Assembly: GCA_016926705.1 (NCBI GenBank)
Contig: JAFGOC010000118.1
Location: 1-38,343 of the forward strand
Direction: 5' to 3'
Length of the DNA: 38,343 nucleotides
Origin: Dehalococcoidales bacterium
Lineage (GTDB): Bacteria; Chloroflexota; Dehalococcoidia; Dehalococcoidales; RBG-16-60-22
Shown here: piece by piece, positions 13,116 to 26,022 of the stretch
Position numbering within the stretch: the stretch's first letter is position 1
How the letters are laid out: every line of letters begins with the position of its first letter
Made by a program: the position numbers and the translations under genes
Notes under the pieces: generated by a model
Told to the model about the DNA's origin: nothing
The model's input: the letters and a program-made list of their open reading frames with translations, nothing else
Database searches by the model: none

Positions 13116-14555
13116 TTACGCCACAATATCTTTAATCTCTGATAAAACACGCTTCCTAGTTTCATCTGGCAAGCTGGGAACCGGGCTTTTCAGTATGGAC
13201 TTAACCTTTTCAGCCGCCATTTCCCATGTTGTATGCCTGCCTTTCTCCTCCCAATTTTCCCGGCTGTTGCGGTCGCTTAAGGTCGGCTGATAGTGTTCTT
13301 TGCGCATAAAACGCCGCGTATGCTTCGCCGTGACAAAGTTGCCGCCAGGACCGATTTCTTTCATAAGGTCATAAGCAATTGTTTCATCGTTGATCTTAAT
13401 GCCTTCGACAGCCCTCATCACCATGCCGAGTATTTCGTTATCGATAACATATTTTTCATAGCAAACGGTCATGGCGAACTCCATTAACCCAGCGCTGTCA
13501 TGAATGAAATTCGCGCCTGACAGAGCGCAGAGCAGGTTGGTAATTGCCGATTCGTAGCCGCTCTGGGCATCCGGCGTCTTGGAGTCGGTCATGCCGCCGG
13601 TGGCGTAATAGGGCAGTTTATAGAACTGCGCCATCTGTGCGCCCGCGGAGTTAAGCAACCCCATCTCCACAGAGCCAGCGATGTATTTATAGTCGCGCAG
13701 GTCGGTGGTGGTGGCTACCGAGCCGAAGATGGCGGGTGTACCCGGGTTGACCGCCTGCGCAAGTATTAACCCCATCAGCGAATCTGCCGTTTGAACTACC
13801 AGGTTACCAGCCAAAGTTACCGGTGAGGTAGCGCCACATAAAGGCTCCGACGGGCAGACCACGGGCAGACCACTTTCGGCGGCGGCAACTAGCATGTCGC
13901 CGTATTTGGCGTCGATAATGAAAGGGCTGATAACGCAGCTGATGATGGAGATAATGGGGCGTTCTCTTAACGCTTGCGGCGAGCCGGCCACCATCTCGGC
14001 TATGCGTATTACCTCGCGCATGCCGTCAATAGTATAGACTCCTCCCATGATGTGCTTGGTGGTGTTATCAAGTCCGGTAAAGAAACGGTTGACATCGACT
14101 TGCTCAATGGGGAGTTCATTGGGGTAGGTCGGCAACAGAAAGAGGTGGATATTATCTAGCTTATCAACCAGTCTGCTGATGTTTTTTAGGTCTTCAAGAG
14201 TGGCCTGGCGTCGCTCGCCGGTAGCCGTATCGTATATATAGAGGGCGGTGCCTCCGGTGCCGGTATAGACCCGGGTGCCTCCGAGATGGATATCATGTTT
14301 CTCATCGCGACCGCAGAGGGTGACCTCGGAGGGGGCTTTACTGATGAGTTCCAGCGCTTTTTTTCTTGGTAGCCGTACGCGGCGTTTTTCACTATTAACG
14401 CTGGCGCCGGCTTTCTCGAAAGCATCACGCGCTTTATCTGAATTGACTTCATAGCCTATTTCTTCAATGATGTTTAGTACTGTTTCGTTTATACTGGATA
14501 TATTTTCGGGGGTGAGGGGTTTATAGCTGCCCCCTTCGAGTCCTTTACGAATCAT
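13116..14555 (-). CDS. Trimethylamine methyltransferase (MttB) family protein, second copy
   Basis: Listed ORF 13116..14627; the internal Met (MIRKGLEGGSYKPLTPENISS) at 14555 avoids a 62-nt overlap with the upstream gene. NTTKHIMGGVYTIDGMREVIRIAEMVAGS. Confidence 0.9.
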   Translation of the reverse strand: MIRKGLEGGSYKPLTPENISSINETVLNIIEEIGYEVNSDKARDAFEKAGASVNSEKRRVRLPRKKALELISKAPSEVTLCGRDEKHDIHLGGTRVYTGTGGTALYIYDTATGERRQATLEDLKNISRLVDKLDNIHLFLLPTYPNELPIEQVDVNRFFTGLDNTTKHIMGGVYTIDGMREVIRIAEMVAGSPQALRERPIISIISCVISPFIIDAKYGDMLVAAAESGLPVVCPSEPLCGATSPVTLAGNLVVQTADSLMGLILAQAVNPGTPAIFGSVATTTDLRDYKYIAGSVEMGLLNSAGAQMAQFYKLPYYATGGMTDSKTPDAQSGYESAITNLLCALSGANFIHDSAGLMEFAMTVCYEKYVIDNEILGMVMRAVEGIKINDETIAYDLMKEIGPGGNFVTAKHTRRFMRKEHYQPTLSDRNSRENWEEKGRHTTWEMAAEKVKSILKSPVPSLPDETRKRVLSEIKDIVA

Positions 14556-14565
14556 CTTTTTTACT

Positions 14566-15240
14566 CTATCTCCTCCTGCCCGGGCAGTCCTTTTCCAAAC
14601 AGGTAATGCACGGGTTATAATTTTCAATTTCTTTATCGGGTCTGCCTATGCCGATGATGCCGGATACCGATTTCTGGGGCACCATCAACATACTGTCATT
14701 CAAATTAATGCCCGCCGCATTATCTCCCAAGGCTTTAAAAACCAGTCCTTGCTGGCTGACATCCCAGTCGCAGTAACCGGGACTGAAGCGGCGGCTGATA
14801 ATAAACCCGTCACGACCAGTATCCTTTCTTATACTCTGTTCAACCCAGATAGCCAGCTTCTCCACCGTACCCGAGGCGATGGCGTCCAGTACCGTCGCCT
14901 GGAGAATCAGCCCCTTCTCCGCCAGGTGGGCAGCCAGGTCTTCCAGGTAATTGCCTATCGTGCAGGCGAAAAAGGCCACCTTTTCACAGCGTTCCATAAG
15001 CCTGGCAACTTTATAACTTTCCAGAATTATTGAATCGCCAGTATCGACACGATTGCCGTTAACAGCTTTGATGCCTCTGACTGTATGAGAATAAAAAGGC
15101 GCAATAAAGTCATGATAATTTTCGATGTAATCATCAACCAGAGAGTCGATACGAGATGATGGTGTAGAATTGCCGTTGTAGCCGATACGGTTTAATATTT
15201 TATCCTTATCAATTTGAATCGGGTCATTCATGAGAGTCAT
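14566..15240 (-). CDS. Vitamin B12-dependent methionine synthase activation-domain-like protein
   Basis: 224 aa; ISRRFSPGYCDWDVSQQGLVFKALGD resembles the MetH activation domain; C-terminal CITCLEKDCPGRRR. Confidence 0.8.
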   Translation of the reverse strand: MTLMNDPIQIDKDKILNRIGYNGNSTPSSRIDSLVDDYIENYHDFIAPFYSHTVRGIKAVNGNRVDTGDSIILESYKVARLMERCEKVAFFACTIGNYLEDLAAHLAEKGLILQATVLDAIASGTVEKLAIWVEQSIRKDTGRDGFIISRRFSPGYCDWDVSQQGLVFKALGDNAAGINLNDSMLMVPQKSVSGIIGIGRPDKEIENYNPCITCLEKDCPGRRR

Positions 15241-18870: not shown

Positions 18871-19662
18871 TTAGTTATTATCAGTTAGTAATCGGCGGCT
18901 GATTTGTAGCAGCTTTTCATTTCCTGTTGGTGACAGACCGAGAGCATTAATTTGTTTCTGTAGTGATTCGTAACTTCCGTAGCCACCCAAATAGCCATTT
19001 ACCCGTGCAGCGGCGGTCGAATGTATTAACTGAACGGTCTCCGGATACATTGCTGTAAATTCATCAAAAAGGTCCGGCTTCTGCTGAAGATAATACTTTT
19101 GGTGATAATCCTCAGCCAGATAGAATTCTGAAAAAGGAATTACTTCAGTAAGAATTTCTTGCCCCAGCTTGGTCTCTTGCCGCTGCTTCGATGCTAAGGC
19201 CACACTTTTCTGGTCTTCGTTATGGTAGAAGATTATTGACATATATTGTCTCGACCGCGGTTGCGCTGTTGGATTATGAGCGTTCCAGAAGATCTCCAAC
19301 AGTTCTTCATAAGTGATTATTGTTGGATCAAAGTCAATTTGAACTGTCTCCGAATGGTCACCCAGAGTATAATAACCGGGATTACTGGTTGTCCCGCCAG
19401 CGTAACCTACACGCGTTCTAATCACACCTTCGATACTCCCGAACCGGGAGTCCGGTCCCCAGAATCAGCCCAAAGCAAAAGTAGCCGTCTCCATTTTTAC
19501 CGAGGTCACTTTATCAATAGGCGGTATAGCGGGAGTACTTATCGTTACATTGTTCGCTATATCCATGAATTGTTGCTCCTCACTGCACCCTGTACTAAAA
19601 CTAGCCATAATAAGGGTTAGCATTATAACTATTAATGAAATCACGATAAATTTGTTTATCAT
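18871..19662 (-). CDS. msrA: Peptide-methionine (S)-S-oxide reductase, predicted selenoprotein (Sec66) lipoprotein
   Basis: ORFs 19465..19662 and 18871..19425 are one reading frame interrupted only by TGA (plus 19465-19467) at the catalytic Cys: [36 protein letters not shown]. N-terminal lipobox (SFSTGC). Hairpin ACTCCCGGTTCGGGAGT begins 14 nt after the UGA. Confidence 0.88.
19435..19451 (-). promoter_or_regulatory. Putative bacterial SECIS element (msrA)
   Basis: ACUCCC-GGUUC-GGGAGU hairpin; first apical G is the 20th nt after UGA. Confidence 0.7.
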
Positions 19663-19668
19663 TTTCTA

Positions 19669-20190
19669 TCAATTTTTACGCTCTTCAAAAATCAAAGCAA
19701 TCGAGTTGATACAATAGCGAAGTCCGGTCGGAGGCGGACCGTCTTCAAATACATGCCCAAGGTGTGCACCACATCGCCAGCACATTACCTCTGTTCTGAC
19801 CATGCCTAGACTATTATCTGTTTCAATTTCAATGCTCTTATCGGATATCGGGGCAAAGAAGCTGGGCCAGCCGGTTCCGGAATCAAACTTTGCTTCTGAA
19901 CTAAAGAGCTCGTTGCCGCAACAAACACATTTGTAAATTCCTTTTTCGTGAAAATCGTAATAATTTCCAGTGAAGGGTCTTTCGGTACCCTTCATCCGGG
20001 TAACCTCAAATTGTTCTGGCGTTAGAATTTGCCTCCATTCTTCGTCACTTTTAATGATCTTACCGGCCATAGCTTCTCCTTCCTGCTCTAAGGATGATGA
20101 ATGTCTATTTGGAGGCGATGCATTTTCGCAACCAAGCGTAAATAATATTGCACAAACCAAAACCAATCCTATAAAAATCCTGAAGATCAT
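19669..20190 (-). CDS. msrB: Peptide-methionine (R)-S-oxide reductase, lipoprotein
   Basis: 173 aa; [59 protein letters not shown]; lipobox LFTLGC. Confidence 0.95.
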
Positions 20191-20229: not shown

Positions 20230-20258
20230 TTGACATCAGCACATTAATTCAATATTAT
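20230..20258 (+). promoter_or_regulatory. Sigma70-type promoter for the perR-heliorhodopsin operon
   Basis: TTGACA (20230-20235), 17-nt spacer, TATTAT (20253-20258). Confidence 0.75.
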
Positions 20259-20262
20259 TAAG

Positions 20263-20283
20263 TAATAGTAACCGTTACTATTA
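20263..20283. promoter_or_regulatory. PerR/Fur-type operator palindrome
   Basis: TAATAGTAAC-C-GTTACTATTA, perfect 10-1-10 inverted repeat just downstream of the -10, in the msrB/perR divergent intergenic region. Confidence 0.8.
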
Positions 20284-20308
20284 TTATTTTATTGGAGTTA
20301 CAAGAATA

Positions 20309-20746
20309 ATGTCAAGGAAATCAATACAAAGAGACGCGATTTTACAAGTAATTAAAAATACTACTTCCCATCCAGGAGTTGATTGGATTTATGACGAGGT
20401 CAGAAAAGAAATTCCCAATATAAGCCTGGGAACCGTTTACCGTAATCTGCGTCTACTGGCACAGGCAGGGGAAATAAGAGAACTGGATATCCCTGGTAGC
20501 GCAAAACGGTTTGATGGCGACACGAGCAACCATCGCCACTTAATATGCGAAAAATGCGGCCGTATTTTCGATTTATATGAGGCTGTAGACCCCAAAATAG
20601 AAGCAAGGATATTTCAAAAAACCGGTTTTAAAGTGAAAAGACAATACCTGAAACTCATTGGATTATGTTCAGATTGTCAAAAACAAGAAGAACAACTGAA
20701 AACCTATATTTATGATAATAGTCTTATAAAAGGAGGGGAAAAATGA
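20309..20746 (+). CDS. Fur-family transcriptional regulator, PerR-like
   Basis: 145 aa; ISLGTVYRNLRLLAQAGEIREL, NHRHLICEKCGRIFDL, LCSDCQ. Confidence 0.93.
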   Translation: MSRKSIQRDAILQVIKNTTSHPGVDWIYDEVRKEIPNISLGTVYRNLRLLAQAGEIRELDIPGSAKRFDGDTSNHRHLICEKCGRIFDLYEAVDPKIEARIFQKTGFKVKRQYLKLIGLCSDCQKQEEQLKTYIYDNSLIKGGEK

Positions 20747-21507
20747 CAATCGACGAAGCTACAGGGAAAAAACTCGGCAAGCTAAGAGTCTGGAACATCG
20801 TCGTCGGCTTGATACTTGCGGTACAGGCAGTATTGATGGCCCTCCTGACGAACGACTTCTCCATCCCGGTAACGGCAACCTTTCTACAGGGGATGCCGGG
20901 TACTCCGTCCACGCTCCAAAACATCTGGAGCATACAGACGGGCTGGGGAGTTTTCGCCTTCATGGCGATATCCGCCGCCGCCCTGCTTCTCATCGCCTCT
21001 CCCTGGGTTTTCCCCTGGTATAAGCGCAACCTGCTCCAGAACAGGAACTACGGTCGGTGGATAGAGTATTTCTTCAGTTCATCGATCATGATAGCTTTAA
21101 TAGCGCAAATCTGCGGTATTACAGATATCGCCGCGCTGATGGCCATTTTCGGTATCAACGCCAGCATGATCCTCTTCGGCGGTATACAGGAAAAATACGA
21201 ACAGCCCGGAAAACCCAGCTGGATACCTTTCTGGTACGGCAGCTTTGCCGGTATCATACCCTGGATAGCCATAGTGGTCTATATAGTTTCCCCGGGGGTC
21301 AGCGCCTCACCGCCCGGATTCGTCTATGCCATCATCGGTTCCTATTTCGTTTTCTTCAATAGTTTCGCTGTCAACATGGTACTGCAATATAAGCAGGTAG
21401 GCCCCTGGAAAGATTACCTGTTCGGCGAAAAGGTATATATAATATTGAGTCTTTCAGCCAAATCTCTTTTAGCATGGCTGGTCTTCGCTAACATACTGGT
21501 ACAGTAA
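20743..21507 (+). CDS. Heliorhodopsin
   Basis: 254 aa, 7-TM pattern; LRVWNIVVGLILAVQAV, RWIEYFFSSSIMIALIAQICGITD (predicted Glu108 counterion), SWIPFWYGSFAGIIPWIAI, SLSAKSLLAWLVFANIL (predicted retinal Lys240). ATGA overlap with perR. Confidence 0.9.
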   Translation: MTIDEATGKKLGKLRVWNIVVGLILAVQAVLMALLTNDFSIPVTATFLQGMPGTPSTLQNIWSIQTGWGVFAFMAISAAALLLIASPWVFPWYKRNLLQNRNYGRWIEYFFSSSIMIALIAQICGITDIAALMAIFGINASMILFGGIQEKYEQPGKPSWIPFWYGSFAGIIPWIAIVVYIVSPGVSASPPGFVYAIIGSYFVFFNSFAVNMVLQYKQVGPWKDYLFGEKVYIILSLSAKSLLAWLVFANILVQ

Positions 21508-21732: not shown

Positions 21733-22761
21733 TTGTCAAACGCTACGAATTCCAATGAAGTTTGCCAGAATGCATCGATTGACATTAAGGGCATCAACAA
21801 AAGTTACGGCAAGCTTCAAGCGCTGAATAATGTTGATCTGGTAATCGAACAGGGCACAGTTTTTGCCTTGTTGGGGCCTAATGGGTCAGGTAAAACGACA
21901 CTGGTGCGTATTTTAACAACCTTGCTACGGCCGGACTCCGGTAGCGCTCATGTCGCCGGCTACGATGTCGTAAGGGAAGCCCATTCCGTACGGTCAGTCA
22001 TCGGGCTGGCCGGCCAGTATCCAGCCGTAGATGAAATCCTAACCGGTAAAGAAAACCTGGAAATGATCGGCCGGTTATATCACCTGGGAAAATCAGTAGC
22101 CAGAGCACGGGCAAAAGAATTACTTAATCGGTTCGATCTTGCAGAAGCCGCGAACCGGCAGGTCAAAACATTTTCGGGCGGCATGCGGCGCCGGCTTGAC
22201 CTCGCCGCTACTCTGATTGCCCGCCCTTCTATTTTATTTTTGGATGAACCGACTACCGGACTTGACCCACGCAGCCGCCTGGGATTATGGGAGGTTATCG
22301 CAGCCCAAGCTAAAGACTGCAATACCGTATTCCTGACCACGCAATACCTTGAGGAAGCCGACAGATTGGCCAATAAAATCGCCATTATTGATAAAGGCCG
22401 TGTTCTTCGCCAAGGAACAAATCAAGAACTAAAAGAGTGCTGCGGCGGAGACACTTTGATAAAAGTAAGGATTGCCGACAGTAATAAAATATCAAAAGCC
22501 AGCGATGTTCTAGAAGACTTAGCAGCAGGGAAATTGGTGAGTTATCCGGATACCGGAGAGATCACGATACCTGCCATTAACGGGCCGTCCTTAATGCCTG
22601 AAATAGTCCGCCGCCTAGATGCTCATAACATCATTATTGCCGAACTTGCCCTAAAACCGCCCACTCTTGACGATGTATTTTTATCCATCACCGGGCACAC
22701 GGCTTTAGAAAATGCGGAGGCGAAACAGAACACACATATTACCGGCAGGGATGATAAATGA
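21733..22761 (+). CDS. ABC transporter ATP-binding protein (DrrA-like)
   Basis: 342 aa, TTG start; LLGPNGSGKTTLVRILTTL, KTFSGGMRRRLDLAATLIARPSILFLDEPTTGLDPRSR. Confidence 0.95.
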   Translation: MSNATNSNEVCQNASIDIKGINKSYGKLQALNNVDLVIEQGTVFALLGPNGSGKTTLVRILTTLLRPDSGSAHVAGYDVVREAHSVRSVIGLAGQYPAVDEILTGKENLEMIGRLYHLGKSVARARAKELLNRFDLAEAANRQVKTFSGGMRRRLDLAATLIARPSILFLDEPTTGLDPRSRLGLWEVIAAQAKDCNTVFLTTQYLEEADRLANKIAIIDKGRVLRQGTNQELKECCGGDTLIKVRIADSNKISKASDVLEDLAAGKLVSYPDTGEITIPAINGPSLMPEIVRRLDAHNIIIAELALKPPTLDDVFLSITGHTALENAEAKQNTHITGRDDK

Positions 22762-23543
22762 ACATTATAACTGGTTCCAGTATTATGAATAGCTTATCGG
22801 ATATTGGAGTAATGACACGGCGGAACATGTTAAGGTACATAAGGTTGCCCCAATTACTGGTTTTTAACGCATTATTGAATGTTGTGTTATTATTACTTTT
22901 TAATTACGTTTTTGGTGGGGCGATTCAAACCGGAGGTATTGCTTATATCCAGTACTTTTTACCTGGTTTCATGGTGCAAACGGTGGTTTTCGGTTCTACG
23001 CAGACCAGTGTCGGTTTATCTGAAGACCTGGCTAAAGGTATGATTGACCGCTTTCGTTCTTTACCGATATCCCGCCTGGCGTTTATCACGGGGAGGGTAA
23101 TTACCGACGCCGTGCGTTATGCTGTATTAATAACGCTTATGATAATCGTCGGGAGTATCATGGGCTTCCGGTTTGAAAACGGAATAATGCCCGTACTTTC
23201 CGGGATTGGGCTGACAATACTCTTTGGGATTGCCCTTACCTGGGTTGGTGTTTTTATCGGGATATCGGTTAAAGACGTAGAGACCGCGCAGGTAGCCGGC
23301 TTTGTCTGGGTATTTCCACTTGTATTTGCCAGCTCTCTTTACGTGCCGATTGAGACAATGCCTTCATGGTTACAGGTTTTTTCAAATATTAACCCCGTGA
23401 CACCAATGGTTGACACAATGCGGGCACTTTCTTTGGGCGGCAGCATATCAGCTTCATTATGGAAAACTCTTGCCTGGGATGCTGCGATTATCCTTATTTT
23501 CCTCACATTGGCGTTGAGACGCTATAAATCAATCGGACAGTAA
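22758..23543 (+). CDS. ABC-2 type transporter permease (DrrB-like)
   Basis: 261 aa, hydrophobic; PGFMVQTVVFGSTQTSVGLSEDLAKGMIDRFRSLPISRLAFITGR; ATGA overlap with the ATPase gene. Confidence 0.92.
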   Translation: MNIITGSSIMNSLSDIGVMTRRNMLRYIRLPQLLVFNALLNVVLLLLFNYVFGGAIQTGGIAYIQYFLPGFMVQTVVFGSTQTSVGLSEDLAKGMIDRFRSLPISRLAFITGRVITDAVRYAVLITLMIIVGSIMGFRFENGIMPVLSGIGLTILFGIALTWVGVFIGISVKDVETAQVAGFVWVFPLVFASSLYVPIETMPSWLQVFSNINPVTPMVDTMRALSLGGSISASLWKTLAWDAAIILIFLTLALRRYKSIGQ

Positions 23544-24014: not shown

Positions 24015-24500
24015 ATGACCGATAAGAAGCAAGTTAAAACCGCGCCGGACTTTACCGAAAGCGATACCCAAGGCCGACAGGTCAAACTATCCGAATATCG
24101 AGGCAAAAAGAACGTAATGCTGGTATTCAACCGCGGTTTCCAATGACCCTACTGCCGTAGGCATATGGCGCAGTTGCGCCGGGATTATAATCAGTTCACA
24201 GACCGCAATACTGATATTATCGCTATCGGACCAGAAGGACATGAAGCGTTCAAAGAATGGTGGGATGAACATCAAATGCCCTTCACCGGGATTGCCGACC
24301 CCAAGCATGTTATCGCTGACACTTACGGTCAGCAGGTTAAACTAATCAAGCTTGGACGTATGCCGGCTAGTATATTGGTTGATAAGCATGGGCAAATAAG
24401 ATACACACACTTTGGAGAGTCAATGGCAGACATACCCAAGACTGGGGAAATTCTAACGCTTATAGATGGTCTGAATAGGGAAGATGCCAGTAAGGGATGA
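24015..24500 (+). CDS. Peroxiredoxin/AhpC-TSA-like protein, predicted selenoprotein (Sec44, UPYC)
   Basis: One frame interrupted only by TGA 24144-24146: MTDKKQVKTAPDFTESDTQGRQVKLSEYRGKKNVMLVFNRGFQ-U-PYCRRHMAQLRRDYNQF... The ORF track starts only at 24165. Confidence 0.87.
24167..24180 (+). promoter_or_regulatory. Putative SECIS element (peroxiredoxin-like)
   Basis: GGCGC-AGUU-GCGCC hairpin; apical G 27 nt after UGA. Confidence 0.55.
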
Positions 24501-24625
24501 AGAGATAGGACAAAGAAAGTCATCGCTGAACTCGGGGCGGGGCTTGGAGTTCACGGCGGGCCAGGGGTTTTGCTGGCAACTATCCGGCGGTCTGGTAGTT
24601 AAAGTATAGTTTGGAGGTAACACTC

Positions 24626-25159
24626 ATGACAACACAACACATAATTCTTCTTATTATCAACATTATCGGAGGAACTGCAGTCATCGGCAGTTATATTTTC
24701 GGCTTGAAAGGGCAATCCGGCGGGGCGAATGTACTCTGGGGCGGCGTGCCGGAAAATATCAGGCCGGTGTATACCGTCTCTATGATAATTTCAGCCCTTG
24801 GATATTTCGCCTTTCTTTATTATATCTTCTTCTGCCTGGAACCGGGACAAGTAAGCATTTTCGGTGTTTCCGGTTTTACGATGTTTTACGTAATATTCGG
24901 TATCATTCTTGTCGCCTCGGCCTTCTGGATGCCGCTGACAAATATCTACGTAAATAATCCGAGCACGGGCATATGGATTGGTGTCCGTACTGTTCTAACG
25001 TTGGTGGGCCTTGCCTCGATCGCTCTGTTGTTATCGTTTATTACCCTGCAAGGTAAGGTACCCGGCGCGGCTCACTGGCTGGCGGTAGCAGGCAGCGGCT
25101 ACTTCGCTTTCCATACTGCCGTATTGGACGCTATAGTCTGGGCAGCTTTGTTTAAATAA
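24626..25159 (+). CDS. Multi-pass membrane protein, unknown function
   Basis: 177 aa from ATG with SD TTGGAGGT; the listed ORF begins at an upstream TTG. Confidence 0.75.
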   Translation: MTTQHIILLIINIIGGTAVIGSYIFGLKGQSGGANVLWGGVPENIRPVYTVSMIISALGYFAFLYYIFFCLEPGQVSIFGVSGFTMFYVIFGIILVASAFWMPLTNIYVNNPSTGIWIGVRTVLTLVGLASIALLLSFITLQGKVPGAAHWLAVAGSGYFAFHTAVLDAIVWAALFK

Positions 25160-25560: not shown

Positions 25561-26022
25561 ATGAAACGTTTGAACCCAAAGAAATTGCATGTCAGATATT
25601 TAACAGGAGCGTCTCCCGATGAGTTTACGTTACCCAGACGCTACACTCTAACTCATTCCGATAAAACAGGAGAGCTCTTCCTTACGATTGGCAGCGAGTA
25701 TGATAAAAAGCAGATTTCCGGTCTGTATACCAGGTTGATGAGAGACGAAGTCCTGGCTGAACTTTTCCGTGAGAGTGATAGATTGGTATTCAGGGTTTAT
25801 TGTCATATAAGCGGTGGATTTGTCTTCGGTACTGCTGGGCTGCGCAACCGCATCTTCCGGGCTGAATTGCCACTTGTTTTAGAAGCTATCAGGTATGGTG
25901 ACCAGGTTCTATTTGAACGGAATCTCGAACTCGATAATGCGCCAGTTTTAGTAAATTTTGAATCTACTAGTAGCCGATTCAATCAGGTGGAAAACTGGGG
26001 AGCCATGCTTGAATACAGGTAG
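25561..26022 (+). CDS. STAY-GREEN (SGR, Mg-dechelatase) family homolog
   Basis: 153 aa; KLHVRYLTGASPDEFTLPRRYTLTHSDKTGELFLTIGSEYD...YTRLMRDEVLAEL...VYCHISGGFVFG...IFRAELPLVLEAIRYGDQVLF...FNQVENWG parallels plant SGR (PRTYTLTHSD, NRLQRDEVVAEW, HCHISGG, IFSKELPVVLKAF, FNKVECWG). Confidence 0.88.
   Translation: MKRLNPKKLHVRYLTGASPDEFTLPRRYTLTHSDKTGELFLTIGSEYDKKQISGLYTRLMRDEVLAELFRESDRLVFRVYCHISGGFVFGTAGLRNRIFRAELPLVLEAIRYGDQVLFERNLELDNAPVLVNFESTSSRFNQVENWGAMLEYR

Follow-up and report, generated by a model that had tools for sequence, protein, structure and literature searches.

The function of heliorhodopsins (HeRs) is still largely unsettled. Partner systems have been described in which an HeR operon contains a regulated partner, namely glutamine synthetase (PMC9529153), photolyase (PMC9769723), or the ABC transporter OmrDE (PMC11109279), and DUF2177, one of the ten neighbour groups listed for these systems, also recurs near HeR in the order Dehalococcoidales. 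Bulzu et al. (2021, PMC8612252) report glutaredoxin, glutathione peroxidase, peroxiredoxin, and catalase genes adjoining HeR and propose a role in oxidative stress mitigation; their main text makes no mention of PerR or of methionine sulfoxide reductase.

Here we analysed an HeR gene (20743-21507, + strand) from a Dehalococcoidales bacterium, found in a contig of 38,343 nt that we refer to as the window (JAFGOC010000118.1). As in the partner systems, the gene shares its operon, and as in the survey of Bulzu et al., oxidative-stress genes lie around it. In contrast to the partner systems, the operon mate is a Fur/PerR-type repressor; the published list of neighbours includes MerR as a group but lacks one for Fur/PerR. 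The position of HeR behind a peroxide repressor and a probable operator offers a connection to oxidative stress that is direct and can be tested, and does so in bacteria for the most part considered anaerobic and independent of light. Cultured Dehalococcoidales are strict anaerobes. The reading that we favour, with modest confidence, is that the locus forms a small regulon of the PerR type, in which a peroxide-derepressed operon would make a photosensor charged with scavenged retinal as one component of a photo-oxidative stress module.

The heliorhodopsin and its retinal pocket

The 254-aa HeR protein matches the Pfam family PF18761 (Heliorhodopsin) over 242 of 242 profile positions with 315.7 bits (E=2.3e-94), against a gathering score of 26.7 bits. 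PF18761 is the sole Pfam family matched, which rules out an unrelated 7-TM family and confirms the identity proposed in the initial annotation. The top sequence matches in the PDB are the 48C12 heliorhodopsin entries 9ljj, 6su3, and 6uh3 (E ~2e-71), and the TaHeR-type entry 6is6 is matched as well; the window HeR resembles 48C12 and TaHeR over its full length, including the counterion glutamate and the Schiff-base lysine. In the alignment to these matches, the TM3 glutamate E108 is paired with E107, the counterion of 48C12, and K240 with K241, its Schiff-base lysine; E108 and K240 are the residues to which the initial annotation had given these roles, and K240 forms the SxxxK motif together with S236. 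Within a set of 72 relatives, drawn from the order and from outside it, R105, W106, E108, Y109, S112, and E150 show no variation; at the positions of S236 and K240, the 71 members of this set that have a residue there are all identical. Equivalents of 48C12 Ser76, Ser111, Ser237, Arg104, Tyr92, Glu149, Glu230, and Trp246 are also present. The AlphaFold model of the protein was too poor to be used (pLDDT 46.8) and was set aside. By homology to 48C12 and TaHeR, the protein is expected to have the inverted 7-TM topology and to bind retinal, and it would thereby act as an all-trans-retinal photosensor with the usual heliorhodopsin fold.

The window HeR differs from 48C12 and TaHeR at both pocket histidines, with Leu25 and Leu81 in place of 48C12 His23 and His80, and also in being encoded together with perR. 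His23 and His80 are part of a proposed proton-accepting network, and mutants at these positions nonetheless form the M state (PMC9726877, PMC6951262). The remaining residues of the network (N18, Q28, S77, Y93, R105, S112, E150, E229, S236, and W245) are conserved in the window HeR. Among 72 HeR sequences, the two pocket positions are both histidine in 20 and both leucine in 52, and are never mixed; 51 of the 52 Leu/Leu proteins fall into one group of the tree, on a long and fully supported branch. As far as these alignments go, the Leu/Leu pair is a subfamily trait and no criterion for heliorhodopsin membership. Such a clade is not mentioned in the literature searched, which did not extend to the PNAS family survey of 2020. 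As the clade lacks histidines that are central to models of the heliorhodopsin photocycle, its members are natural variants with which such models can be tested.

The PerR-type regulator and the divergent promoters

The gene directly upstream of HeR (20309-20746, + strand) encodes a 145-aa member of the Fur family (PF01475, E=1.6e-27), the closest solved structure being B. subtilis PerR (2fe3, E=1.6e-27), to which it aligns without gaps. Its residues H21, D69, H75, H77, and D88 correspond to the B. subtilis PerR metal ligands H37, D85, H91, H93, and D104, and C80, C83, C120, and C123 to the structural zinc cysteines, so that both ligand sets are fully retained and the earlier designation as a PerR-type regulator stands. 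Asp104 of this ligand list, a glutamate in Fur, has been proposed as the key to H2O2 access or sensitivity (PMC4866751). Fur-family members are hard to tell apart by sequence and the genome encodes five paralogues, and it could therefore be argued that the regulator is a Fur that responds to iron or another metal and no peroxide sensor, the locus then linking HeR to metal status. We regard this as quite improbable, as all five PerR ligands match, including the aspartate at the 104 position, the two closest matches among solved structures, B. subtilis 2fe3 and 4i7h, are both PerR proteins, and the divergent gene is msrB.

The junction of the two genes is as the initial annotation described it: the TGA stop of perR and the ATG of HeR overlap by 4 nt as ATGA, the regulator reaching the HeR start through a 17-residue C-terminal tail. 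Translational coupling is possible, but HeR has a strong Shine-Dalgarno sequence of its own (AGGAGGGG) about 5 nt before its start, and coupling to perR would thus not be needed. In the nearest relative (locus L011 of genome G076, HeR 91% identical), PerR is 17 residues shorter, the genes are separated by a 43-nt gap, and HeR starts with GTG, which indicates that the overlap arose through a C-terminal extension in the window lineage. Among the 78 HeR loci compared, the 4-nt overlap is confined to the window.

Divergent from perR, on the - strand, lies msrB (19669-20190), encoding a methionine sulfoxide reductase with a SelR domain (PF01641, E=4.7e-53). Between the two genes is a perfect 21-bp inverted repeat of 10-1-10 form, TAATAGTAAC-C-GTTACTATTA (20263-20283). 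It is flanked by two sigma-70-type promoters, each agreeing with the consensus at 11 of 12 bases, TTGACA-17-TATTAT for perR-HeR (20230-20258, + strand) and TTGACA-18-TAAAAT for msrB (20286-20315, - strand). When the region was shuffled 5000 times, a 10-nt arm arose in 13 cases and 11/12 promoters on both strands in none. The proposed Fur/PerR operator (TAATAGTAACnGTTACTATTA) differs from the B. subtilis PerR box, which is 7-1-7.

A scan of the whole genome allowing up to three mismatches gave a perfect match at the window site only and one further match on contig C7, whereas a reversed control pattern gave none. This second operator-like palindrome (L143, G000:C7:2378-2398) lies about 25 bp before a Fur-family gene that is divergent from the gene for a flavodiiron protein (ODP and flavodoxin domains). 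The predicted operator thus precedes perR itself and the oxidative-defence gene msrB at one site, and stands by a Fur paralogue and a flavodiiron protein at the other. In the order as a whole (156 genomes), box matches were no more numerous than those of the reversed control, and only their placement is informative: of 19 box sites inspected, 8 have the start of a Fur-family gene no more than about 50 bp away. G076 carries an imperfect version of the box before its perR-HeR genes, and in two genomes of family f10 a box with its Fur gene precedes HeR by about 900 bp, in the same orientation. From its placement before Fur-family genes, the palindrome probably serves as an operator for a Fur-family protein, with msrBA and perR-HeR both most likely under its control, and each of the five Fur-family proteins of the genome is a candidate to bind it.

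For the PerR-type regulon that we favour, the following sequence of events can be proposed. PerR, as an Fe/Zn peroxide-sensing repressor, would bind the palindrome, which overlaps the start regions of both divergent promoters, and would keep msrB (with msrA) and perR-HeR silent for as long as its metal-site histidines are not oxidised by peroxide. HeR would then be produced from the perR transcript, possibly via coupled translation.

Distribution and neighbours of HeR in the order

The comparison set consisted of 78 non-redundant HeR loci and of the 156 genomes of the order, 48 of which carry HeR. A Fur-family/PerR gene directly upstream of HeR was found in two of the 78 loci, those of the window and of G076, whose HeRs are sisters. 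HeR therefore does not need PerR, and a conserved perR-HeR operon is not the general rule. The window genome has a second HeR copy (C110), 77% identical to the first, with neither the box nor perR; the gene before it appears NUDIX-like from its translation. The initial annotation had read the overlapping genes as tying photoreception to peroxide-type regulation. The predicted operator between the msrBA and perR-HeR promoters argues for such a tie, while the rarity of the arrangement and its absence before the second copy argue against a general one. The facts of that annotation were sound and its meaning was half right. A wider connection of HeR with oxidative stress was already suspected, and the PerR link represents a local variant of it.

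In a maximum-likelihood tree, the window HeR and that of G076, a genome assigned to a different family, f12, are sisters with a support of 100/99, and the pair is nested in a group whose other members come from the genus of the window and from a Dehalococcoidales contig without placement. This topology suggests that the perR-HeR unit moved by lateral transfer between the window lineage and G076, the alternative being a mis-binned contig. It is possible, though on the unlikely side, that HeR is a mobile and self-sufficient gene that landed behind perR and gained a promoter with no functional tie to peroxide, its role being set by DegV, the 5-TM protein described below, and DUF2177. HeR does occur in many different contexts across the order and on plasmids too, the sister relationship with the HeR of an f12 genome suggests transfer, and the neighbours in question recur, DegV being the commonest clustered neighbour of HeR (19 of 78 loci) and the 5-TM gene being accompanied by HeR in 24 of the 29 genomes that have it. 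However, perR and an operator resembling the box stayed with HeR in the transferred unit, and oxidation-related genes are found near HeR in several separate lineages.

These oxidation-related genes fit the PerR-type regulon proposed here. Beyond msrB, the window contains an msrA gene (18871-19620, - strand, start uncertain) and a gene for an AhpC/TSA peroxiredoxin-like protein (24015-24500, + strand), in each of which the catalytic position is occupied by an in-frame TGA (G-TGA-FWG and Q-TGA-PYC, respectively); ordinary ORF calling truncates both. Since the TGA codons fall on active-site positions and the genome encodes SelB, both products are probably selenoproteins. At candidate SECIS elements of these two genes, RNA folding gave hairpins that were not stronger than those of shuffled sequences (z -0.65 and -1.36), and an Rfam search of the hairpins gave no match. 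Elsewhere in the order, G084 has an MsrA frame before HeR that starts just past the equivalent catalytic position, G083 a related MsrA before HeR, G093 and G096 a peroxiredoxin-like gene after HeR, and G083 and G036 a catalase near HeR. Between HeR and the peroxiredoxin-like gene of the window, an ABC-2 transporter ATPase and permease (21733-23543, + strand) begin 225 nt downstream of HeR. On the other side of HeR, an MttB-family methyltransferase gene (13116-14627, - strand) overlaps an Rfam PYLIS_3 match (13493-13592); its 503-aa frame holds no in-frame amber codon, which rules out pyrrolysine and identifies a pyrrolysine-free homologue.

A concrete candidate for an HeR partner is an orphan 5-TM protein of 182 residues ('TM180'; 24611-25159, + strand) that recurs beside HeR and Staygreen genes. 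No Pfam family matched it, leaving homology to TspO unsupported by Pfam; its structure, predicted with confidence (pLDDT 89.7), has five long helices, and a comparison of this model with the PDB gave no fold match below E=0.9. In 12 genomes no more than 6 kb separate the gene from HeR, with DegV often preceding the 5-TM gene, and its co-occurrence with HeR (24/29 genomes versus 48/156 overall) corresponds to a Fisher P of ~1e-10, uncorrected for shared ancestry. Like the Leu/Leu clade, a PerR operon with HeR and an orphan 5-TM partner were not found in the literature searched, whereas the link between HeR and oxidative stress is already published.

Two further HeR genes were noted. One lies on a 10.5-kb mobilizable plasmid of Lactococcus petauri (L169, NZ_CP141705.1), flanked by the genes for an IS6 transposase and a recombinase, and another, sister to a Dehalococcoidia HeR, on a contig binned as Phycisphaerae (Planctomycetota; L051) that is probably mis-binned. 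A search for HeR in phages found none.

Retinal supply and tetrapyrrole-related neighbours

Profiles for phytoene synthase (PF00494), Blh/Brp (PF15461), and RPE65 (PF03055) had no match in the window genome (79% complete), which extends to the available genome the initial observation that no retinal biosynthesis gene was visible in the window. Over the 156 genomes of the order, PF00494 exceeded its cut-off in three, and PF15461 and PF03055 in none, the silence of PF15461 being the weaker result as it was also silent in 14 of 14 control genomes. It is unlikely that the genes are merely missing from a 79%-complete bin, as closed HeR-bearing genomes of family f10 (99-100% complete) also gave no match to PF00494, PF15461, or PF03055. 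Two of the three genomes with a phytoene synthase (G091 and G127) are those with the TspO cluster beside HeR.

Such a lineage could in principle use HeR as a light-independent apo-opsin or as a lipid- or retinoid-binding protein. The near-complete lack of phytoene synthase, Blh/Brp, and RPE65 here and in the relatives, closed HeR-bearing genomes included, speaks for this reading, as does a habitat that is probably anoxic and often dark. We nevertheless consider it very improbable, as the Schiff-base lysine and the counterion glutamate are invariant across the family and heliorhodopsins acquire external retinal fast and are used by microbes without retinal synthesis (PMC9296517). Taken together, the lack of retinal genes and this fast uptake make scavenging the likely supply route for the window HeR. 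The rhodopsins of Saccharibacteria offer a parallel, as their carriers also lack retinal synthesis and use scavenged retinal, but these are type-1 proton pumps from freshwater lakes and not heliorhodopsins (PMC9296517). With known retinal-making genes nearly absent from 156 genomes, 48 of them with HeR, retinal scavenging becomes a sharp question in this order.

Within the PerR-type regulon, retinal would thus come from outside the cell, because the cell cannot make it by known genes. Light would then cause HeR to alter the activity of a partner, with no ion pumping; candidates for this partner are the 5-TM protein encoded in the same cluster or the repair enzymes. Taken as a whole, the unit would pair light sensing with the repair of oxidised methionine and the handling of photosensitising tetrapyrroles.

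The tetrapyrrole component is suggested by a further set of neighbours. Downstream of the 5-TM gene, the window encodes a homologue of the Staygreen (Mg-dechelatase) family (25561-26022, + strand; PF12638, E=5.3e-50). A Staygreen gene also stands beside HeR in G076 and G025, and the family is present in seven of the 156 genomes, six of them with HeR; for six of nine Staygreen genes, the 5-TM gene lies within 450 nt. A Chloroflexota Staygreen enzyme strips Mg from chlorophylls in vitro (PMC11006732), and we did not find heliorhodopsin and Staygreen named together in the literature searched. TspO directly follows HeR in G127 (L103), a gene of the same cluster follows HeR in G091 (L104), and G075 has a gene for a SOUL haem-binding protein close to HeR, a gene of the same cluster being present in G074.

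These neighbours allow a broader, speculative proposal, unlikely to hold in all its parts, of a Dehalococcoidales photo-oxidative stress module that runs on scavenged pigments. The histidine-less HeR, charged with retinal from decaying phototrophs, would act via the 5-TM protein; Staygreen, TspO, and SOUL proteins, together with selenoprotein Msr enzymes and peroxiredoxins, would handle chlorophyll-derived photosensitisers and the damage that they cause; and PerR would exert direct control in some lineages. The window genome also has a second Staygreen copy (G000:C9:19975-20421).
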